From a virus, in IMG/VR virus record IMGVR_UViG_3300042564_001377, positions 1-28,097 of that record: a stretch of DNA of 28,097 nucleotides, one strand, 5' to 3'. The first letter of the stretch is position 1, and every line of letters begins with the position of its first letter. The position numbers were made by a program, and so were the translations under genes. The notes beneath the pieces were generated by a model that worked only from the letters and a program-made list of their open reading frames with translations, made no database searches and was not told where the DNA came from. Positions 9,472-17,544 of the stretch are shown here, piece by piece.

Positions 9472-9596
9472 TGGATATTATTTCATTAGGTATTATATAT
9501 GGGGCGATTTGCATAGTAGCAGTCGCCCTTTTATCTTATAGGATTGTTAAGAATCCTGATGGAGAGACGTTTGCCTACAAAAAGGTTTTGAGGTAG
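9471..9596 (+). CDS. 41-residue single-pass membrane microprotein
   Basis: The ATG overlaps the stop of the preceding gene by one base (TAATG). The product starts with a hydrophobic segment (residues 4-22, including GIIYGAICIVAVALL) and ends with a short basic tail (YRIVKNPDGETFAYKKVLR). A single membrane span with a positive C-terminal tail fits a small phage membrane protein, perhaps linked to the lysis genes that follow. I recognise no family. Confidence 0.6.
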   Translation: MDIISLGIIYGAICIVAVALLSYRIVKNPDGETFAYKKVLR

Positions 9597-9617
9597 TATA
9601 AAAGACCACTATCTTTG
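9587..9617 (+). promoter_or_regulatory. Bacteroidota-type promoter for the lysis cassette
   Basis: TTTG at 9587-9590 is followed after 19 bases by TATCTTTG at 9610-9617, a consensus pair. The next ATG is at 9637. The -33 element lies inside the last codons of the preceding microprotein gene. Confidence 0.75.
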
Positions 9618-9636
9618 TTATAGATATCTTAGAAGA

Positions 9637-9927
9637 ATGGACAATACTATTGAGCAATTAAAAGCTTATTTATTCCCGACAGTAATTTCGATTATGTCGA
9701 TAATGATTTGGCACGACGTCAGTGAAATGAAAGCTGATATTAAGCAGTTAATAGTACAATCTAATGTAGATAAGACAAGGATAGATAACCTAGAGCGTCA
9801 AATCTACAAAACAGGATTAAGAGTACCAACCCCTCCTTCTAAGCTACCACTTCAGGTAGATATGCGTCAAGTAGTGGCAATTAAGCCAGATGAAGACGAC
9901 GAGAAATATCACTTGTACCATTTGTAA
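9637..9927 (+). CDS. Small coiled-coil membrane protein (lysis-associated)
   Basis: This 96-residue protein has a hydrophobic N-terminal span (about residues 10-25). A helical coiled-coil region follows (about 28-58, including VDKTRIDNLERQIYK), then a Pro-rich and acidic tail. The layout resembles small phage membrane proteins of the XhlA type or i-spanin-like proteins that accompany holins. It is the first gene after a consensus promoter and lies 35 bases before the holin candidate. The membrane/coiled-coil description is direct; the lysis role is inferred from the neighbours. Confidence 0.7.
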   Translation: MDNTIEQLKAYLFPTVISIMSIMIWHDVSEMKADIKQLIVQSNVDKTRIDNLERQIYKTGLRVPTPPSKLPLQVDMRQVVAIKPDEDDEKYHLYHL

Positions 9928-9962
9928 TATCAAGCATTTATATACCTAACTCACTAAAAATT

Positions 9963-10253
9963 ATGTCTTTCATTTCTTCCCTTTTCCGCGATGACAATGA
10001 TATAAACGAAAAGTCAGTCCTTGGCTTCTTGTCATTCGCTATCTTATTCATCTATGGTGTTGTAGATGTAGTTACAGGATATTTTGGTCAACAGTTCGTT
10101 ATCGAACCAATTATCTTAGAAGTATTCGCTGCTTTAACATTCGGCTGTTTTGGTATCTCATCTTACGAGAAAGTTCAAAACCGTAAGACAGATGCTGAAC
10201 GCGAAAAGAACTTACCTGGAGGCTTAGACCCTCTACCAGAAGATGAAGGTTAA
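9963..10253 (+). CDS. Holin-like protein with two membrane spans
   Basis: The 96-residue protein has two predicted transmembrane segments (about residues 18-40 and 47-67). A charged C-terminal tail contains SSYEKVQNRKTDAEREK and ends in acidic residues. Size, topology and position two genes upstream of an endolysin fit a holin that permeabilises the inner membrane for lysin release. The N-terminus is short and polar. The gene overlaps the next gene by 11 bases. Holins diverge too much for a family call by eye, so the function is inferred from topology and context. Confidence 0.7.
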   Translation: MSFISSLFRDDNDINEKSVLGFLSFAILFIYGVVDVVTGYFGQQFVIEPIILEVFAALTFGCFGISSYEKVQNRKTDAEREKNLPGGLDPLPEDEG

Positions 10254-10848
10254 TATAGCCCTATTCGTGTGTTGTATGATTGCTATCTTCTATGCTTACA
10301 CAAAGCATATGGAAGCAGGAGAGGCTCGCCCTAATGACACACTAGTTGTACACGATACAGCTTGGCAGAAATACGATTCATTGATAGTTAAAAAAGTTCC
10401 TGTGCCTTACGAGGTTATTGTGGAGGTTGCATCTAAACCAGAAATGTTGCCTGACACAAACTATGCTAAATTAAAGCAGCAGTATATGGCGTTATTGCAA
10501 CTCTATCTAAATAAGATGGTCTACCACGATACTATTCGCGTAGGAACATATGGATACATTGCGTTATTAGACTCAGTAAAAGAAAACAAGATAGCATACA
10601 GAAGAACGCGTGATAATTTCGATATACCAGTTGTTAAAGAAACTAAAACTATTACTAAGTATGCACCACCTACGCGTAACCTATTTATTGGAGGAGGCAT
10701 TGTCGTTAACAACACTATTGGGATAAGAGGTGCTGAGGCAGGAATGATATTTAAAACAAAAAAAGACCAGTTGTATAACGTTAAAGCGTCCGTTGATTTA
10801 GACGGTAAAGTTATGTACGGCGTTGGTTATTATTATAAACTAAAATAA
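10243..10848 (+). CDS. Membrane-anchored periplasmic protein, possible spanin-like role
   Basis: This 201-residue protein has an N-terminal membrane anchor (about residues 4-19, with no clear cleavage site). A charged periplasmic region follows, with helical and short beta parts. The C-terminal 60 residues alternate polar and hydrophobic positions with repeated Gly (FIGGGIVVNN, GVGYYYKLK) and end in aromatic residues, much like strands of an outer-membrane protein. It overlaps the holin-like gene by 11 bases, as spanin genes often overlap their neighbours. It may correspond to the DUF6808-type proteins seen in Bacteroidota phages, which is from memory. Linking the inner and outer membrane during lysis is a reasonable inference but not shown. 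Confidence 0.65.
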   Translation: MKVNIALFVCCMIAIFYAYTKHMEAGEARPNDTLVVHDTAWQKYDSLIVKKVPVPYEVIVEVASKPEMLPDTNYAKLKQQYMALLQLYLNKMVYHDTIRVGTYGYIALLDSVKENKIAYRRTRDNFDIPVVKETKTITKYAPPTRNLFIGGGIVVNNTIGIRGAEAGMIFKTKKDQLYNVKASVDLDGKVMYGVGYYYKLK

Positions 10849-10849
10849 A

Positions 10850-11026
10850 ATGTATTTAATCAGATGTATTAAAGCGTTGTTCACTGCGAAGAAAAAAGTA
10901 GCAGTAGCAGTTGAGAAGACTCAAGACGCTGTAGTAGAAATTAAAGATGTGGTAGCGGAAGCTATTGCAGAAGTTGCTGTACCAACTCCTAAGAAGAAGA
11001 AGTATTACGCTAAAAAGAAAAAATAG
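10850..11026 (+). CDS. 58-residue Lys/Ala/Val-rich small protein
   Basis: ATG at 10850 directly follows the previous stop and TAG ends at 11026, one base before the endolysin start. The product begins with a short hydrophobic stretch (MYLIRCIKALF). A long amphipathic helix of Ala, Val, Glu and Lys follows, with a very basic end (KKKKYYAKKKK). It could lie on a membrane surface or bind nucleic acid. No family is recognised. The spacing and codon pattern support a real gene inside the lysis operon. Confidence 0.6.
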   Translation: MYLIRCIKALFTAKKKVAVAVEKTQDAVVEIKDVVAEAIAEVAVPTPKKKKYYAKKKK

Positions 11027-11027
11027 T

Positions 11028-11954
11028 ATGCTATTAAAAGTAGGTTCAACAGGGGAAGATGTGACTAAGCTACAAGTTAAGCTTGGCGTAGACCCTATTG
11101 GCAAGTTTGGTCCTAAGACAGAGGCAGCTGTCAAAGGTTGGCAGTCTGCCCACGGTTTGACGCCAGATGGAATTGTAGGAGATGCGACGTGGGCGAAGAT
11201 GTTTGCTCCAGTTACAGCGCCTCCTACGGCTCATACAGTTGTTAATACTCCCACTTCATTTACTCCAATTGCAACACCTCCTACAGGCTATACAGTAGTA
11301 ATAGATACTCCTGCATCATTTGCGCCACCTGCACCAAGTGTAAGCTTGCCAGTATTTAAACTAGACGCTCTTAAAGGACACGTTCCTCAAGCTGTTATTG
11401 ATGCAATTCCTGATACAGCAGCTCGTTTTGGAATTACAACTCCATTAAGATTAGCGCATTTTTTGGCACAGTGTGGTCATGAGTCTGGTGGCTTTAGAGC
11501 TACACAGGAGAATTTAAATTACTCGGCAAAAGGCTTATGCGGAATCTTCCGTAAGTATTTCCCTAGCGTAACTGTTGCAATGCAATACGAACGCAAACCA
11601 GAAAAGATTGCTAACCGTGTTTATGCATCTCGTATGGGTAATGGTAACGAAGCATCTGGTGAAGGATGGAAATATCGTGGTAGAGGCTATATCCAATTGA
11701 CTGGTAAGGAAAACTACAAAGCATTTGATGCTACTGTTCCTGAAGATATTACATCTAATCCAGACTTAGTAGCAACTAAATATGCTCTAGCCTCCGCAGC
11801 ATTTTTCTTTAAGAAGAATGGCTTATGGGCTATCTGTGATAGGGGTGCTGATATGGGTACAGTTACAGCTGTAACTAAACGTGTAAACGGCGGGACTATT
11901 GGTTTAGCAGACCGTCAAAAACATTTTAACGAGTTTTATCATTTATTAGCATAA
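11028..11954 (+). CDS. Endolysin: peptidoglycan-binding domain plus GH19 lysozyme/chitinase-type domain
   Basis: This 308-residue enzyme cleaves the peptidoglycan sugar backbone at lysis. Residues 1-60 form a PG_binding_1 domain (VGSTGEDVTKLQVKLG, then GPKTEAAVKGWQ and DGIVGDATW). A Pro/Thr linker (61-108) contains two copies of a TPPT-TVV-TPxSF unit. The GH19 catalytic domain fills the rest, with the general-acid candidate E152 in QCGHESGGF and a second conserved acid E212 in GEGWKYRGRGYIQLTG. I choose the ATG at 11028 because it begins the binding domain exactly and lies one base after the preceding stop. An in-frame upstream ATG at 10965 would add a Lys/Arg-rich leader inside the previous gene. 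No signal peptide is present, so export depends on the holin. Confidence 0.93.
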   Translation: MLLKVGSTGEDVTKLQVKLGVDPIGKFGPKTEAAVKGWQSAHGLTPDGIVGDATWAKMFAPVTAPPTAHTVVNTPTSFTPIATPPTGYTVVIDTPASFAPPAPSVSLPVFKLDALKGHVPQAVIDAIPDTAARFGITTPLRLAHFLAQCGHESGGFRATQENLNYSAKGLCGIFRKYFPSVTVAMQYERKPEKIANRVYASRMGNGNEASGEGWKYRGRGYIQLTGKENYKAFDATVPEDITSNPDLVATKYALASAAFFFKKNGLWAICDRGADMGTVTAVTKRVNGGTIGLADRQKHFNEFYHLLA

Positions 11955-12079
11955 TGGCAAAGCAAAAACCATCATCGGAGAACAAAAAGGTTGTATTTGG
12001 TGTACGTCGTAATGGCAAGCACAAGAAGACAAATGGTCCCAAAGAAAGCCCATCTAAACCCTCGCGCGGGCAAGGATAA
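11954..12079 (+). CDS. 41-residue basic small protein
   Basis: The ATG overlaps the endolysin stop by one base (TAATG). The product is strongly basic with little hydrophobic content: FGVRRNGKHKKTNGPKE in the middle and PSRGQG at the end. Small proteins with a similar pattern of RRxGKxKK, GPK and RGQG occur beside lysis genes in other Bacteroidota phages as I recall. The role is unknown; nucleic-acid binding or a disordered virion peptide are possibilities. The close packing argues that it is a true gene. Confidence 0.6.
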   Translation: MAKQKPSSENKKVVFGVRRNGKHKKTNGPKESPSKPSRGQG

Positions 12080-12081
12080 TT

Positions 12082-12540
12082 ATGAGACTATTGCTTAGCA
12101 TATTGTTATTTTGGTTTATGCGACCACAAGAAATAACTGTAGCATCTGTACAGAATAATGTACAGATTGGCGCTCTTGCTGGCAATAGAAACTTAGAGTT
12201 TGGTGTGAAGAATATGTTAGAGGAGTTCTTGCAAGAAGCAGGACACGATATATCCGATGGCGCACCAACTCAGATTAAGGTAGAGATTCTTTATTTAGAC
12301 GTATTAAAAACTCAATCTAACCTGTCAGTATTCCACAATAATAAGGAAGCTGTAGTTATTAGAATGAGAGGTAGATTAATACAGGATGGCAAGGTTAAGA
12401 AGACCGTTATCGTAGAGGAGCAAGCAGAAGAAGTTTCAATGTCTGCATTGTTAATTGACGAGGGCGGTAAGTTTAATCAAACCAACCTAAGTAGCGCATT
12501 AAAGAAATCTTGTAACACCTTAATCACTAAGCTATTATAA
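12082..12540 (+). CDS. Predicted exported protein, CsgG-module partner
   Basis: This 152-residue protein begins with a basic-hydrophobic N-terminus (MRLLLSILLFWFM) that can act as a signal sequence or anchor. A compact alpha/beta domain follows. Its alternation of strands (IKVEILYLDVL, AVVIRMRGRLI, KKTVIVEEQ) and a C-terminal helix (SSALKKSCNTLITKLL) recalls periplasmic lipoprotein folds of the YajG/LptE or ABC-auxiliary kind, although no lipobox cysteine is present. It starts three bases after the preceding stop, and its last base is the first base of the next gene's start codon (TAATG). It therefore belongs to the envelope-protein block. The function is unknown. Confidence 0.7.
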   Translation: MRLLLSILLFWFMRPQEITVASVQNNVQIGALAGNRNLEFGVKNMLEEFLQEAGHDISDGAPTQIKVEILYLDVLKTQSNLSVFHNNKEAVVIRMRGRLIQDGKVKKTVIVEEQAEEVSMSALLIDEGGKFNQTNLSSALKKSCNTLITKLL

Positions 12541-14315
12541 TGAAAAAACTATTCTTTACCCTTGCAGCAATTCTGCTGCTTACCTACAGCACATCTGCTC
12601 AAACAGTTAAGTTAAGTTTGCAAAATGCAAACACTAATACTAATGTCAATGGCGCTGTAATTAATAAGGGAGACGAGTTTCTTGTAACTGTGATGGCAGA
12701 CGGGAACGGAAACACTTCTACTCGCGCTTTATACTTTGACTTTGAATATCAGAATACCGCATTCCAATTTATAAGCGTTAATCATACTGGCACAGGAGGG
12801 AACGGAGGCATCATTCCTTATGGTTCACAAATATCAATGGACTATCAGGATTATCCAGGCTATAACTACAACAAGACTACCCAGAACACAACTGATAATG
12901 GGAACACTAACTACTACAATTCTCAATACAACTACACTCAGGGCGGCTCTAAGTCAATTCTTCGTGTATACCTTAACTGGTCTGTAGCGTCAGGTGGTTT
13001 AGGTAAAGATAGGCTACTTGTTCTTAAGTTTAAATTAAAGACAGATGCTCCTGGATACGCTTGGAATCCAATTGCAATGAACTTTGCAGCAGCGTTCAAT
13101 CAGAACGGAACTAGCGGAGCTACATTAATGACAACGCCTCTTACAAGCGTTATTATGCTAGACCCAACTGCTACTAAGTATGTTACAGCAAGCATTGATT
13201 ACAACGCAAATACGGACGCTCAGTCACTGACTAGAATTGCCTTTACAGATAGCGTTAGAAACACAGTGTACCTAGTAGACGCACTATCTGACGGGACAAT
13301 TCCTGTTGACCAAAATCAACTGCAACCTAATACTGTTTACCACGTTAGGACATTGTTTAATATGGACAGCATTAAAGACCTATACGCGGCAGCAGTTACT
13401 GTCTCTGACTACACAACTGCGCAGGCTGAGTTTGTCACACAGAACTTAGATGGAACATTCAAGAATCAAAATATCATTACAGGTATGGGATATCTTGCTG
13501 CCAACGTGAATAATAACAAGAACTTTGATGGAGGCGACTTAGTCAAGTTGTTTGCGCAGGTATCGGGTGTAGAGTCATTGTTTACCCTGCCAACTAACTA
13601 TGCAGCAGGAACAGATATGTATGCAAGTGTACCTACGTTTACTGATTCTACTTTTAATGCATTAACTGCAGCTAATTGGAAGGACGTAAGTAGAAACTAT
13701 GTTCGCTTTAAGACAGCTGAGATTGGAAAGAACCTTCCGTTAAAAATCAAGTTTGTTATCCCAGGCGATATCAATAGAAGTCACAGCTCACAAGTTGTTA
13801 TTGGCAACTCAATAGCTACTAATGCAGTACCTAGCTTAAAGAAAAACTTAGCTAGAACAAAAACTGCTAACTTATTAATTAACACTCCTCAGTTTGTACC
13901 ATCTATTAATGTCACAATTCTTGGAAAAACTGTGACAAGCAACAGTTTTGAGATACCTGTTAAAGTAAATACAGGAGCAAGTAATGTTGCAGCACTCCAA
14001 TTTGAGTTCGTTTATGACCCAACAAAAGTTAAATTTGTAGAGCTGTTAAATGAGCTACCTAATACTTGGTATACCTTTGTAGATAATAAGGCAGGACGTG
14101 TAAGATTTGGGGCATTAGACAAGGAGTTAAAGAATCCAGTAACAGGTGAGCTTACGCCATTTAAGTTAAAGTTTGAAACCATTGGTAATGGAGCTGATAT
14201 TAACTCAGTAATACGCGTGTCTCCTAATATGGATGCGGCATCTAAGACAGGATATCAACTAGGAATTAATTTAAACCTAGAGGTTATAAAATTAACGGGA
14301 ATAAATAATTTTTAA
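12540..14315 (+). CDS. Secreted protein with two cohesin-like domains and a dockerin-like segment
   Basis: The 591-residue product has a clear signal peptide (residues 1-20, ending STSAQ). Residues 22-195 resemble a cohesin-type beta-sandwich (DEFLVTVMADGN, ALYFDFEYQNTAFQFISV, LLVLKFKLKT) with a Gly/Asn/Tyr-rich insertion. A middle region carries two dockerin-like stretches, near 283-300 and at 317-345. The second contains ANVNNNKNFDGGDLVKLF, whose spaced Asn/Asp residues look like a calcium loop. A third acidic GDIN occurs near 410. Residues 454-591 form a second cohesin-like domain (FEIPVKVNTG, ALQFEFVYDPTKVKFVEL, LTPFKLKFETIG). Cohesins and dockerins bind each other in cellulosomes and in some bacterial surface proteins. 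In a phage it may be a surface or envelope scaffold. Domain calls are by eye and need profile search. Confidence 0.8.
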   Translation: MKKLFFTLAAILLLTYSTSAQTVKLSLQNANTNTNVNGAVINKGDEFLVTVMADGNGNTSTRALYFDFEYQNTAFQFISVNHTGTGGNGGIIPYGSQISMDYQDYPGYNYNKTTQNTTDNGNTNYYNSQYNYTQGGSKSILRVYLNWSVASGGLGKDRLLVLKFKLKTDAPGYAWNPIAMNFAAAFNQNGTSGATLMTTPLTSVIMLDPTATKYVTASIDYNANTDAQSLTRIAFTDSVRNTVYLVDALSDGTIPVDQNQLQPNTVYHVRTLFNMDSIKDLYAAAVTVSDYTTAQAEFVTQNLDGTFKNQNIITGMGYLAANVNNNKNFDGGDLVKLFAQVSGVESLFTLPTNYAAGTDMYASVPTFTDSTFNALTAANWKDVSRNYVRFKTAEIGKNLPLKIKFVIPGDINRSHSSQVVIGNSIATNAVPSLKKNLARTKTANLLINTPQFVPSINVTILGKTVTSNSFEIPVKVNTGASNVAALQFEFVYDPTKVKFVELLNELPNTWYTFVDNKAGRVRFGALDKELKNPVTGELTPFKLKFETIGNGADINSVIRVSPNMDAASKTGYQLGINLNLEVIKLTGINNF

Positions 14316-14321
14316 GTTAAA

Positions 14322-14675
14322 ATGAAGAAGACGATAGCATTTTTGTTGATAGTGATGCTGGCAGCTTGCCAAGATATAGAGACATTAGAAAAAGAAGTTA
14401 GCTTAGGCGTAGCTCCATCTGCAACAGATATTACTAGTATAGTAGTAGAAGGTAAGCAGGCAACTATTGTAGCTAATACAGTTGTAGGAGCCAAGTATTC
14501 TATTCAGGTGTACAAGTTCGGAAAAACCGAACCAGTGCGAACGGTTGGCTTTACAGCAACGTCTGTAGCTACAATAAAAAGTATCCAGTTGGATACAATT
14601 TCCCGTGGGTTATATGACCTTACATTAACAGATGTATCGGGCGTAACAATTAAAAAACCTTTAATAATTAATTAG
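14322..14675 (+). CDS. Small lipoprotein
   Basis: The 117-residue protein has a typical lipoprotein signal: MKK, a hydrophobic core and the lipobox LAAC with Cys16 as the lipidated residue. Acidic residues follow the cysteine (QDIETLEKE), which in Bacteroidota can favour outer-membrane or surface export. The mature part is a single beta-rich domain of about 90 residues with short strands (ITSIVVEG, ATIVANT, YSIQVYKFG, GLYDLTLTD), like a small Ig-type or fibronectin-like sandwich. It follows the cohesin-like gene by six bases. It could anchor other members of the block at the outer membrane or act as a phage-encoded exclusion lipoprotein. Both ideas are inference. Confidence 0.75.
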   Translation: MKKTIAFLLIVMLAACQDIETLEKEVSLGVAPSATDITSIVVEGKQATIVANTVVGAKYSIQVYKFGKTEPVRTVGFTATSVATIKSIQLDTISRGLYDLTLTDVSGVTIKKPLIIN

Positions 14676-14677
14676 CT

Positions 14678-14824
14678 ATGATAACATTTGCTAATGGTAT
14701 ATCAATAGGGAATAACCCCTCAATAACAAAGACTAATGTAGGTGTTAGAATAACTAACGACTTAGGATTAAATATAGAATTGTCCAACGAAATTTGGCAA
14801 TCATTAACTAAAAACAAAAAATAA
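14678..14824 (+). CDS. 48-residue microprotein
   Basis: The gene starts two bases after the lipoprotein stop and ends one base before the next start. The product has no signal or membrane segment. It appears to be a small beta-rich chain (FANGISIG, VGVRITNDLGLNIELS) ending in a short Lys-rich tail. No relative is recognised. The exact packing between two genes supports it. Confidence 0.5.
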   Translation: MITFANGISIGNNPSITKTNVGVRITNDLGLNIELSNEIWQSLTKNKK

Positions 14825-14825
14825 G

Positions 14826-15134
14826 ATGGCAGAAGAATCAGAAAACTCAGGCGGCTCATTAAAGAGTATCCTTATCGGACTAGCAAGTACAATTGCACTA
14901 GGTGTAGGCGGATTTATGACAAAACAATTAACAGGAGAAGAAGAAGCAGCAGCTGCACCAGCGGCAGTAACAGCTCCAGCTCCTGTAATTAACATTACAA
15001 CCAATAACACTCAGCAGCAAAAGCAAGCGGCATCTGCAGGCGGCACAAGAGTTGTTGAGCGGGTTGTAGAAAAACCAGCAGCACCTAAGAAGAAGACTGA
15101 GAAAGAGGCGCTTGCGGAGGAACCAAAATGGTAA
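14826..15134 (+). CDS. Single-pass membrane protein with Ala/Pro-rich tail
   Basis: The 102-residue protein has a short acidic N-terminus, one Gly/Ala-rich membrane segment (about residues 13-32, SILIGLASTIALGVGGFM), then a flexible run of Glu, Ala and Pro (about 38-52). A Gln/Asn stretch follows, and then a basic-acidic tail with KPAAPKKKTEKEA. The long disordered tail after one inner-membrane span is what a periplasm-spanning linker or a TonB/spanin-like tether would have. No known family motif is seen. Its stop codon lies inside the next small gene (7-base overlap), so the genes are likely co-translated. Confidence 0.65.
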   Translation: MAEESENSGGSLKSILIGLASTIALGVGGFMTKQLTGEEEAAAAPAAVTAPAPVINITTNNTQQQKQAASAGGTRVVERVVEKPAAPKKKTEKEALAEEPKW

Positions 15135-15232
15135 AATTAAGTAGTATTACTACTAATAATAACAAAAATACAAACCAATATTGGCGGGTAAATGATAATT
15201 ATCCAAACCAATGGTTTGCATTACTAATATAA
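15128..15232 (+). CDS. 34-residue microprotein
   Basis: ATG at 15128 overlaps the end of the previous gene by 7 bases, and the stop lies three bases before the CsgG-family gene. The peptide is rich in Asn and Thr, with two tryptophans and a hydrophobic end (NQWFALLI). Nothing recognisable is seen. Support is mainly that it fills a gap otherwise empty in a tightly packed operon. Confidence 0.4.
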   Translation: MVKLSSITTNNNKNTNQYWRVNDNYPNQWFALLI

Positions 15233-15235
15233 ACT

Positions 15236-15940
15236 ATGAAGAAAATATTAATCCTATTACTAGCTTCATTTGGAGCAACCGCCCAAGTAGCCTCTGTCAA
15301 AACAGAAGCCTATACAGCTTCGTTTGAGAAGAAGATTAATATCGATTCATTAATGGACTATGATGGTCCGAAGATTCCTATTCAGCTATTGTCTTTAGGT
15401 ATCAACGAGGAGGTTTACGCGGCGTATCCTGAGCTAAAAGACAAGCGTGTGGGTCTTGGTGTCACTAACATTGTTATCGAGTTCCTAGAGGAAACTAATC
15501 GCTTCACGTTTACTGAAGACAAAGCTGAGATTAAGAACAGAATGGTAAAGCAATTCCAAGCCTCACAGGCTGGAATCTCTGAGAACAAGTTAGACGGTAG
15601 AGGTAAGATTAAGTTAGCTCAGTTTTTTTGTTACATCGAATGTTACGACTTCTCGATTAGTGAAGATGAATCCATTTCAATTAAAGGAGATACAAAACAA
15701 ACTGTAGTAACAAGACTAGGCTTACAAGTTAAGTTTGTTAACGCAGAGACAGGAGAGTTCTTTACAGGTTCAGGATTAGGTGAAGCTAAAACTACGCGCG
15801 AAGCAACATTAATGAATGATGGAAACTTTGCGGAGGTTAAATTTAATCAGTCTACTATTGGTACAACCACAAAGAAAGCCTTAGAAAATGCTGCCGCAAA
15901 GATTATTGTTCGAATGATTAAAAAGAAAATATTCAAGTGA
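15236..15940 (+). CDS. CsgG-family exported protein (curli secretion channel-like domain)
   Basis: The 234-residue protein starts with a cleavable signal peptide (1-17, ending GATAQ). Residues 72-230 follow the CsgG domain order: VGLGVTNIVIEFLEETNRF (family nucleotide-like fold start), IKNRMVKQFQASQAG, then KLAQFFCYIECYDF. After these come VVTRLGLQVKFVNAETGEF and a C-terminal helix KALENAAAKIIVRMI. In bacteria CsgG makes an outer-membrane ring that exports curli subunits. Two differences stand out. There is no lipobox cysteine, and the stretch between ECYDF and VVTRL (residues 139-156) is short and charged, so the usual pore-forming hairpin may be reduced. It may form a periplasmic ring rather than a channel. 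Its TGA overlaps the GTG start of the next gene. Confidence 0.8.
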   Translation: MKKILILLLASFGATAQVASVKTEAYTASFEKKINIDSLMDYDGPKIPIQLLSLGINEEVYAAYPELKDKRVGLGVTNIVIEFLEETNRFTFTEDKAEIKNRMVKQFQASQAGISENKLDGRGKIKLAQFFCYIECYDFSISEDESISIKGDTKQTVVTRLGLQVKFVNAETGEFFTGSGLGEAKTTREATLMNDGNFAEVKFNQSTIGTTTKKALENAAAKIIVRMIKKKIFK

Positions 15941-17202
15941 AATGGTTATGGCTACTAATTTTTATTCTGACGTTATTTGGGGCTAGTGGTCAAGTACTAA
16001 CACAAGTCTTCGTAGACCCTTGTAGCGGAAAAGTAACAACCGTAGTGGTACCACTTGCTAACGGGAAAACAACAGTAGTTTATAGAGGACAGTACAGAGT
16101 AGTAACGGCAAACGATATTACCACAGGAGCTTTGCAGGCGTGGATTAATGAATTGACAATTAACTTCCCTTGCCCGCAAGCTACTGTTGCTGTACAACAA
16201 ACAGTTACAAATGCTGTTCAACAAGCGGTTGCACAAGCTACATCTGCAGCAACAGCAACTGCGACAGCGGCAGCTACTTCAGCAGCAACATCTGCGGCAA
16301 CATCAGCTGCCTCCTCAGCGGCATCAGGAGCAGCATCTTCTGCAGCAAGTGGTGCAGTAACATCAACACCAGCACCTTCATCACAAAGCAGTTCAAGTAG
16401 TTCATCTCAAGGTGAAAGTAGCTCTCCTAAAACAGAGTCTAAGTCAGAAACAAAATCAGAGTCTAAGAGCGAAGAAAAGTCTGAATCTAAATCCGAATCG
16501 AAAAGTGAAAGCAAGAAAGAATCTAAGTCAGAAAAGAAAAGCGAGTACAAGAAATCGAACGCTGTGGCGAATCCGATTATATATAGCTCGGACCTTACAG
16601 TCGCTCCAGCAAGTGATATCATTTCTATTATCGCAAGCGTAGGGATGAGCCAAAGTTCACTAATGGGCAACTCTTCGTGGGGTATATCTTCTATGATATG
16701 GTCTACATTTGACCAGTTTGCTTTATCAGGCAGATATACATTAATGAACTTTAATTCAGGCAAGCTACAATCTATCTCCAACTTTGGCGTCACAGGCGTT
16801 TATTTAGGCGGCACAACGCTTGGATTTGTTACCGCTGCACATATTCAACCTTTGGGGAAATACGGTGTCTCAGGAGCCAACTATACACTTAGTGTTGCTG
16901 GGGCAGATGCTGGTTATAACATCAGTAATAATATAATGTTATTCTATACTATCCCCGTTAAGATTAGTAAAAGGCTTACTATTTCGCCAGATGTTTATTT
17001 ATCAGGCAGTTCTACTGGATACTTAACTGCACAGCAGAAGTTTATTACATCTGATGACATAGGTATCCTTACAGGCGCATCCTTTGATATAGCGCTTACT
17101 AAACGCTTTAAGTTTAATTTCGCCTTAAAAACGGGATTCAATACTAATCCAATTATTCCGCAAACTTATTTGGGTATGATTGGGACTAAAATAAATTTAT
17201 AA
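15937..17202 (+). CDS. Outer-membrane beta-barrel-like protein with Ala/Ser and Ser/Lys/Glu linker
   Basis: The 421-residue product begins at GTG (15937), which overlaps the preceding TGA. No in-frame ATG lies nearby, and this start gives an intact signal peptide (1-19, ending GASGQ). Residues 20-95 form a small domain with two cysteines (C29 and one near 79) that could pair. Residues 97-147 are almost only Ala, Thr, Ser and Gly. Residues 147-206 are Ser followed by a degenerate SESK repeat. Residues 210-421 alternate hydrophobic and polar residues in strand-length blocks rich in Gly, Ser and Tyr, as in an outer-membrane barrel. The last residues are MIGTKINL. The extended linker could cross the periplasm or the surface layer. 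No named family is recognised. Confidence 0.75.
   Translation: MKWLWLLIFILTLFGASGQVLTQVFVDPCSGKVTTVVVPLANGKTTVVYRGQYRVVTANDITTGALQAWINELTINFPCPQATVAVQQTVTNAVQQAVAQATSAATATATAAATSAATSAATSAASSAASGAASSAASGAVTSTPAPSSQSSSSSSSQGESSSPKTESKSETKSESKSEEKSESKSESKSESKKESKSEKKSEYKKSNAVANPIIYSSDLTVAPASDIISIIASVGMSQSSLMGNSSWGISSMIWSTFDQFALSGRYTLMNFNSGKLQSISNFGVTGVYLGGTTLGFVTAAHIQPLGKYGVSGANYTLSVAGADAGYNISNNIMLFYTIPVKISKRLTISPDVYLSGSSTGYLTAQQKFITSDDIGILTGASFDIALTKRFKFNFALKTGFNTNPIIPQTYLGMIGTKINL
16225..16552 (+). repeat. Low-complexity coding repeat (Ala/Thr/Ser then Ser/Lys/Glu)
   Basis: About 150 bases of near-repeating GCA/ACA/TCT-type codons encode Ala/Thr/Ser. They are followed by about 120 bases of degenerate TCT-GAA-TCT-AAA units. 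Codons vary within the repeats, so the peptide composition, not the DNA, seems to be maintained. Confidence 0.75.
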
Positions 17203-17211
17203 GTATCTTTA
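17180..17211 (+). promoter_or_regulatory. Imperfect Bacteroidota-type promoter
   Basis: TTG at 17180-17182 and TATCTTT at 17204-17210 are 21 bases apart. The last base of the -7 element is A instead of G. It would serve the small gene starting at 17231. Confidence 0.4.
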
Positions 17212-17230
17212 CTCAACCAAACAAAAAGAT

Positions 17231-17434
17231 ATGATTCAATTTATGATTCCCTCAGATGCCATCAATGAGATTGAGATGGAACATATTAAGTATCTTGGGA
17301 TACAAGACACTAAAGTTAAAACCCTTTTAGACATCCTAGATGGTATTGAAACGATTCCAGTTGAATCAAAAATCGCCCTAGAAACCAACGTATTAGATGC
17401 TTTAAGCGAAATTGTAGTAAGATTAAGAAAGTAG
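17231..17434 (+). CDS. 67-residue hypothetical protein
   Basis: This small, mostly helical, acidic protein carries IESKIALETNVLDALSEIVV-like helices in its second half and a short N-terminal beta-like start (MIQFMIP). It has no membrane segment. It appears to form its own transcription unit, with an imperfect promoter just upstream and a hairpin terminator 28 bases downstream. That isolation suggests separate expression, possibly as a small regulator or inhibitor, but no motif supports a function. Confidence 0.6.
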   Translation: MIQFMIPSDAINEIEMEHIKYLGIQDTKVKTLLDILDGIETIPVESKIALETNVLDALSEIVVRLRK

Positions 17435-17462
17435 AATAATTTTTCATATAGGTTGTTTATCT

Positions 17463-17498
17463 AATGCCTTGGTTCTATGAGCCAGGGCATTGTCTTTT
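17463..17498 (+). terminator. Rho-independent terminator before the tail operon
   Basis: AATGCCTTGG (17463-17472) pairs with CCAGGGCATT (17482-17491) through 10 bp with one wobble and a nine-base loop, followed by GTCTTTTA. The U-tract is short, but the position between two transcription units supports the call. Confidence 0.75.
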
Positions 17499-17521
17499 AT
17501 AGATAAAATTTCATAACTTTG
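17490..17521 (+). promoter_or_regulatory. Bacteroidota-type promoter for the neck/tail operon
   Basis: TTG at 17490-17492 and TAACTTTG at 17514-17521 are 21 bases apart, matching the family consensus. The start codon of the first neck gene is at 17545. The -33 element overlaps the arm of the terminator hairpin. Confidence 0.7.
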
Positions 17522-17544
17522 GATAAATATAACATTATAGGATA

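Follow-up and report, generated by a model that had tools for sequence, protein, structure and literature searches.

A conserved phage module of CsgG-fold, cohesin and beta-barrel genes, predicted to act on the envelope of hosts that are probably Bacteroidota

Organization of the locus

The viral record IMGVR_UViG_3300042564_001377 is a linear sequence of 28,097 bases, probably a fragment, and this whole stretch is called the window here. Between positions 12082 and 17202 it carries a block of six open reading frames (ORFs) of at least 100 amino acids, named A to F, and two tiny ORFs, all on the + strand (Table 1). An initial annotation had counted eight co-directed genes, a number that is reached if the two very short ORFs (48 and 34 amino acids) are included; the main genes are six. 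Neighbouring genes overlap, as that annotation had noted, or nearly touch. For instance, A and B share one base (TAATG), and the last 4 bases of E (GTGA) also belong to F. A 41-amino-acid ORF bridges the upstream endolysin gene and A, and the junctions on both of its sides are tight.

In the window, A, B, C, E and F each have a signal peptide or a lipobox, and signal-like N-termini are kept among relatives (219 of 237 B proteins, 152 of 161 E, 163 of 164 F and 57 of 59 C). The export signals proposed earlier are therefore a conserved property, C being a lipoprotein and D a protein with a single transmembrane segment and a low-complexity tail rich in Ala, Pro and Lys. The PADLOC defence models gave only weak matches, the best being 0.004 for the small gene G, downstream of the block, and 0.08 for the low-complexity stretch in F.

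Distribution and conservation of the module

The block is a real, conserved phage module. Scans of viral contigs recovered 109 relatives of E with the window protein as query and 246 with a divergent query, on contigs that reach 434 kb. Some relatives may occur in both sets, and 80 from each set were retained. Two samples anchored on E were analysed with profile hidden Markov models (HMMs), and the contigs with enough flanking sequence were 51 in sample 1 and 50 in sample 2, up to 373 kb long. A, B, D and F were present in 51/51 contigs of sample 1, on the same strand, and in 50/50 of sample 2, both samples including close relatives. Since the samples were anchored on E only, this co-occurrence is not built in; the A model also recognises E, and E itself was left out when A was counted. 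Conserved co-occurrence, which the initial annotation had named as a check, is thus a feature of the module. Overall, the five-gene core was found in more than 100 viral contigs checked, whose lengths run from about 30 kb to beyond 250 kb, and E in hundreds.

In a set of 56 contigs without redundancy in E, the best-conserved protein is E (median identity 67%), followed by D (50%), A (31%), B (28%) and F (23%). Distances correlate across the module genes (0.58–0.93; E against A 0.84, B 0.80, F 0.83 and D 0.58), and none of 500 permutations gave a co-divergence as high. Because the core is kept across many lineages, it must be useful to phages.

A tblastn search of E against 50,697 annotated phage records matched only isolates of the Flavobacterium sp. 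LMO8 phage immuto (55% identity, E-value 2e-67). In immuto, four genes lie side by side: gp015 contains a cohesin and a sorting domain, gp016 corresponds to D, gp017 to E, and gp018 is F-like; gp019 matches A. A blastn search against phages gave no match, D had none by tblastn, and the annotation of the lysis neighbourhood of phi14:2, a crAss-like relative, contains no similar module. The host of the window phage is probably a member of the Bacteroidota.

When the E alignment was compared with 84,980 species genomes, three loci were obtained. One is a short Flavobacterium contig from a metagenome-assembled genome (MAG). The second, a 254-kb MAG contig with GH19 endolysin and tail-collar-like genes nearby, as judged from the translations, is probably a phage. 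The third, a segment of an Ignavibacteriales chromosome (L165), is likely to be genuine and is the sole convincing bacterial chromosomal relative. Its operon (L165:7977-15413) encodes a CsgG-family lipoprotein, a paralogue of it, a transglutaminase-like protein, a CHASE2-adenylate cyclase and an exported 428-amino-acid protein. Like the phage module, it has adjacent E-like and A-like proteins (L165_E and L165_A) and, further on, the 428-amino-acid protein, which is predicted to be exported and may be a barrel. It differs in that its E homologue is a lipoprotein, in the presence of the transglutaminase-like protein and the cyclase, and in the lack of B, C and D. Cyclases also sit in the curli modules of pelagiphages (PMC9599517). 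A and E may have come from such a cellular operon or be cousins of its proteins. The 428-amino-acid protein was considered as an F homologue and set aside, since sequence support was not found. Searches for a bacterial origin in 395 genomes of the L165 phylum and 391 of its class gave only weak matches besides L165 itself, and a viral scan with L165_E found nothing.

The CsgG-fold protein E and its probable distant relative A

The AlphaFold2 (AF2) model of E (18 rows; mean pLDDT 71) is built of long paired strands, and its first 19 Foldseek matches are all CsgG (E-value 5.5e-7, probability 1.00, TM-score about 0.5). E has no direct match in Pfam, NCBIfam or PDB sequences, the CsgG family model included. 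Because these direct searches gave nothing, its kinship to CsgG is argued through the fold and through a bridging homologue: L165_E, which is 38% identical to E, scores above the Pfam CsgG cut-off (PF03783). Both lines uphold the CsgG-type domain that had been proposed for this protein.

The relation of A to this family has modest support and would be a distant one. The A-family HMM matches L165_A at 9e-8, and L165_A and L165_E are adjacent paralogues, 31% identical to each other; therefore A would be a second CsgG-family protein.

A lipobox was not found in E, and its pattern is matched by only 3 of 83 ORFs of the family. Hairpin 1 of E has 8 charged residues in 26, against 5 in 30 for E. coli CsgG, and across the E family it carries about 8 in 25. 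Given the missing lipobox and the extra charges in hairpin 1 of E, we consider F the likelier of the two to cross the outer membrane.

The cohesin protein B, the lipoprotein C and the membrane protein D

B of the window contains a cohesin domain (Pfam PF00963, residues 469-533, E-value 1.1e-5, above the curated cut-off), and a cohesin match with an E-value of 1 or better occurs in 16 of 20 family members. The initial annotation had described two cohesin-like domains around a dockerin-like stretch. The C-terminal cohesin is the part that stands. The N-terminal cohesin-like part, compared with the C-terminal domain as profiles, reaches a probability of only 6% (E-value 0.006). The dockerin-like calcium-loop motifs are conserved in the alignment, but Pfam Dockerin_1 matches weakly (0.02-0.07 in relatives), so the dockerin is a putative one.

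In several relatives (L049, L073, L120 and immuto gp015) B ends in a type A sorting domain of the type 9 secretion system (T9SS), with TIGR04183 above cut-off and E-values down to 9e-12, and the L164 protein has a PF18962 sorting domain (2e-11). Neither model found such a domain in B of the window. According to profile models of 158 contigs, the sorting domain without C occurs in 93, C without the domain in 59, both in none and neither in 6. Among these last six, immuto does have a TIGR04183 domain and the L051 group has two small lipoproteins. When compared by hhalign, the mature part of C and the sorting domains of B look homologous (probability 92.7, E-value 4e-7), while the other pairings of that comparison, among them the A–E relation, stayed below 14. 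We infer that B reaches the cell surface by one of two routes, either with its own T9SS domain or with lipoprotein C alongside.

Acidic residues follow the lipid-bearing cysteine of C (for example, CQDIE and CSDLE). This stretch loosely recalls the lipoprotein export signals SDDFE and QKDDE, which place lipoproteins on the Bacteroidetes surface (PMC5080379). A match of C to the PHROG 'Cor superinfection exclusion' family (0.008) was put down to the lipoprotein signal. In D, the C-terminal residue is an invariant Trp (mostly PKW), also in immuto, which suggests a C-terminal docking tail.

Phage-encoded T9SS cargo with a type A sorting domain has been described in Cryophage (PMC7468147) and in crAss-BACON relatives (PMC6949934). 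Unlike these proteins, B is part of an invariant multi-gene module, and many lineages swap the sorting domain for a neighbouring lipoprotein with a related domain.

Variable surface-type partners, with C-type lectin or GEVED domains, adjoin B-like proteins or are fused to them (L002:10527-11525, L049:10944-12377, L051:2481-4787 and L065:10348-11451). Lectin_C is matched at 3e-15 in immuto gp013 and GEVED at 2e-12 in L065.

The surface position of B in relatives bears on the main rival explanation, namely receptor masking or superinfection exclusion. According to it, infected cells would display the cohesin protein, and neither competing phages nor newly released progeny would then adsorb to the cell or its debris. 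The partners that bind carbohydrates or surfaces in some phages agree with this role, as do the exported non-specific nuclease close to the module in L049 and the strong divergence of B, A and F around a constant E, as expected for a constant base with a variable exterior. There is also a precedent in T5 Llp, a phage outer-membrane lipoprotein that acts against adsorption by blocking a receptor, and exclusion proteins reportedly keep phages from adsorbing to the fragments left after lysis (PMC9586334). Llp could be a functional analogue, but it is a single, early-expressed lipoprotein with no known homology to the module. Exclusion proteins are in general described as early (PMC9586334), whereas in many lineages the module encloses holin or endolysin genes or shares a predicted transcription unit with them, and masking needs less than a six-gene, envelope-spanning set. 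We consider exclusion a serious possibility, without favouring it.

The barrel protein F and the comparison with curli systems

In the AF2 model of F (mean pLDDT 66, about 80 in the barrel), a beta domain is followed by a helix, a disordered linker and a barrel of about 12 strands. Foldseek against the PDB gave FapF first (E-value 2e-6), with the porins KdgM and NanC scoring nearly as well, and a BFVD search returned generic barrels only. The model and the fold matches agree with the earlier description of a barrel-like protein with a long linker. Low-complexity matches on F (DDHD, GltJ and others) were dropped as composition artefacts. As modelled, F resembles FapF, the functional-amyloid exporter of Pseudomonas, in the predicted barrel of about 12 strands, the N-terminal helical region and the linker; it differs in sequence (6-9% identity) and in that other Fap components were not seen. 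A second F-related barrel lies beside the module in one relative (L164:11513-12334; HMM E-value 2.8e-18). Another has an extra gene between E and F (L045:8765-9424) that by eye looks like a GIY-YIG homing endonuclease.

The CsgG fold of E and the first position of the amyloid exporter FapF among the PDB matches of F could indicate a phage-borne, curli-like (type VIII secretion) system, in which E and/or F would form a channel that exports B or another product, leading to fibres or host aggregation. Pelagiphages do carry csgG/csgF modules (PMC7029224, PMC9599517). The nearest published phage systems are in fact the curli modules of pelagiphages and of the methylophage Melnitz, which occur in aquatic phages of more than one morphotype and for which, in the case of the Melnitz CsgG, a role in lysis has been proposed (PMC7029224, PMC9599517, PMC9004378). 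What they share with the present module is only the CsgG fold. Here, family searches matched neither CsgF, CsgE nor curlin among the block proteins; the module has two proteins assigned to the CsgG family, neither with a lipobox, next to a separate barrel, a cohesin protein anchored by T9SS or by a lipoprotein, and a predicted inner-membrane protein; the hosts are probably Bacteroidota, and the genes often lie beside or within the lysis genes. Moreover, B of most relatives has its own T9SS signal and so needs no new channel, and FapF is barely ahead of ordinary 12-strand porins. The analogy with curli export drawn in the initial annotation is thus not maintained, since curli partners and lipid anchor are missing and the hairpins are more charged than in CsgG, and curli-like export or adhesion is in our view improbable.

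Lysis genes and predicted transcription units

Apart from the genes of the module itself, lysis genes are its commonest neighbours. In sample 1, the families found around E are the endolysin (40 of 51 contigs), the holin-like p9963 (38-41), C (36) and p10243 (32); p10243 occurs in 0/50 contigs of sample 2, where the endolysin is in view in 41/50. The holin-like gene lies inside the module in 40 contigs, in some of them between D and E. The endolysin gene is inside it in 10 and at most 300 bp upstream in 48, and its position varies: it can directly precede A, separate E from F, follow F or be divergent. Family searches gave no match for the holin-like protein.

The next family near E in sample 1 is a two-transmembrane-like one (23/51), and every other reaches 17 or fewer. 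Its members (113-195 amino acids, 186 in one case) have an apparent two-transmembrane region, are found in L046-L080 and L164, lie between D and E or upstream of A, and are possibly a second holin-like protein. A 58-amino-acid Lys-rich protein, encoded at window positions 10850-11026 between p10243 and the endolysin and restricted to close relatives, might act as a cationic peptide in lysis. Exported nucleases are also encoded near the module (L049:16032-16616, Endonuclease_NS, 3e-26; immuto gp012, annotated NUC1, L002:9935-10513) and might degrade DNA at lysis or on superinfection.

TAnnTTTG is the -7 consensus of Bacteroidetes promoters. This box is present in 4/4 long intergenic gaps of the window, a result reached for all four in 1 of 2000 shuffles. 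The succession of a hairpin and a TAnnTTTG box in the gaps 690-804, 2375-2496, 9472-9636 and 17435-17544 provides a simple map of the transcription units of the window. One predicted unit (9610-17492) would span the holin-like gene, p10243, the endolysin and the module. We propose that the neck genes, past the conserved hairpin, are served by their own promoter-like box.

This arrangement bears on the suggestion that some or all products are virion proteins, decorating the tail or head. The block is just upstream of the neck genes in the window, and cohesin- and lectin-type folds can decorate virions. Against this, the window neck genes are near E in only 8/51 contigs of sample 1 and are parted from the module by the conserved hairpin and their own box, and the conserved signal peptides of A, B, E, F and C, together with the T9SS sorting domains, argue for export. 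Virion decoration, also raised in the initial annotation, is very unlikely.

Table 1. Genes and predicted signals of the lysis and module region, in window positions
Feature	Position	Strand	Basis
Terminator-like hairpin with T-rich tail, closing the upstream unit	9501..9528	+	Sequence of gap 9472-9636
-7 box TAnnTTTG (TATCTTTG), proposed promoter of lysis and module unit	9610..9617	+	Box in long intergenic gaps
Holin-like protein p9963, 96 aa (amino acids), two transmembrane segments	9963..10253	+	Two hydrophobic segments
p10243, 201 aa, N-terminal transmembrane segment, possible i-spanin-like lysis gene	10243..10848	+	Topology
Endolysin, peptidoglycan-binding domain and GH19 (ORF opens at 10965)	11028..11954	+	PHROG 181 endolysin, 4e-72; Pfam GH19, 5e-8
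Putative 41-aa basic ORF, overlapping endolysin stop, ending 2 bases before A	11954..12079	+	Sequence
A, exported, 152 aa, putative distant CsgG-family relative	12082..12540	+	Pfam Lipoprotein_16, 3.5e-4 (below cut-off); A-family HMM against L165_A
B, exported, 591 aa, C-terminal cohesin domain, dockerin-like motif at residues 322-335 and 409-417	12540..14315	+	Pfam Cohesin; alignment
C, lipoprotein, mature part like T9SS sorting domain	14322..14675	+	hhalign; lipobox and acidic residues after Cys
Putative 48-aa ORF	14678..14824	+	ORF list
D, 102 aa, one transmembrane segment, Ala/Pro/Lys-rich tail, C-terminal Trp	14826..15134	+	Topology; in 101/101 contigs
Putative 34-aa ORF	15128..15232	+	ORF list
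E, exported CsgG-fold protein, best-conserved module gene	15236..15940	+	AF2, Foldseek; median identity
F, exported; N-terminal beta domain, helix, Ser/Lys linker, C-terminal predicted beta-barrel of ~12 strands	15937..17202	+	AF2; Foldseek FapF, KdgM, NanC
G, 67 aa, last gene of unit, close relatives only	17231..17434	+	Searches of relatives
Terminator-like hairpin, conserved	17460..17492	+	Compensatory changes among relatives
TAnnTTTG box (TAACTTTG), proposed separate neck-gene promoter	17514..17521	+	Conserved downstream of closing hairpin

Proposed function of the module

The initial annotation had suggested a structure built across the host envelope late in infection. The envelope part is well supported by the composition of the module, the export signals, the T9SS domains of relatives and the invariant co-occurrence. 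As for the late timing, the predicted unit shared with lysis genes speaks for it in this lineage, although the module of immuto is distant from such genes. Our preferred reading is that the module encodes an envelope-spanning surface assembly that would act on the outer membrane and the surface layer, mainly as infection ends, and we hold it tentatively, seeing its chances as nearly balanced.

In this reading, a mobile module would build the assembly, in the window phage together with holin and endolysin. D would be placed in the inner membrane. A and E would be periplasmic CsgG-fold proteins, probably ring-forming, by analogy with other proteins of this fold, and F would form the barrel in the outer membrane, its other parts being a domain in the periplasm and a long tether. 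B would stay on the outside of the cell, through its own T9SS sorting domain in many relatives and with lipoprotein C in the window, and some relatives would add a lectin- or GEVED-domain protein. Such an assembly could help to open the outer membrane and the surface layer, or could let the progeny escape. Localisation, ring formation, a physical complex and function are all deduced here from sequences and models.

A narrower version is rather doubtful. In it, the module would be a lysis-stage machine of Bacteroidota phages, with a conduit running from D through A/E to F and, coupled to it, a surface cohesin protein placed by the host T9SS or by a lipoprotein. It would replace or supplement spanins in opening an outer membrane that a surface layer covers, and unrelated phages, jumbo phages among them, would exchange it as a whole. 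Like spanins, the module comprises membrane proteins linked to holin and endolysin, and C and D superficially resemble an outer-membrane lipoprotein and its inner-membrane partner (PMC6139136). Unlike spanins, D looks low-complexity and not coiled-coil, and barrel, cohesin and CsgG-fold proteins are foreign to these systems. C and D as a two-component spanin pair were ruled out, as C occurs in only 59/158 contigs.

An action at lysis is supported by the enrichment of the module beside lysis genes. Of 31 contigs with a length of 100 kb or more, 22 have the endolysin in view, where random placement predicts 3.7 (13/20 against 2.3 in the non-redundant set), a prediction that is too low because late genes cluster. 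Several observations weigh against an action at lysis. The immuto module (about 11.6-16.4 kb) is ~28 kb from the endolysin and holin genes (43.7-44.8 kb), and an endolysin of the window family is not in view in 11/51 and 9/50 contigs. The endolysin co-diverges weakly with the module (0.3-0.4) and is therefore a neighbour, not a strict partner. The possible i-spanin gene of the window phage means that disruption of the outer membrane may already be served, the holin is a putative one, assigned by topology, and the lectin and GEVED proteins found in some relatives would be more in keeping with binding to surfaces than with rupture of a membrane.

Significance

No description of this gene combination was found in open-access papers. 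By its composition, its conservation and its failure to belong to known systems, the module appears to be of a new kind, with a function deduced as described above. The cultured Flavobacterium phage immuto carries it, so that its role is directly testable. If the module masks receptors, it would be an unusually elaborate exclusion system that borrows the T9SS of the host. Several phages of Bacteroidota, among them B124-14 of Bacteroides and P2559S/Y of Croceibacter, appear in a published list of phages that lack spanins (PMC6139136). The module may be part of the way in which Bacteroidota phages get through the outer membrane and, if it acts at lysis, it would be a new answer to this problem.

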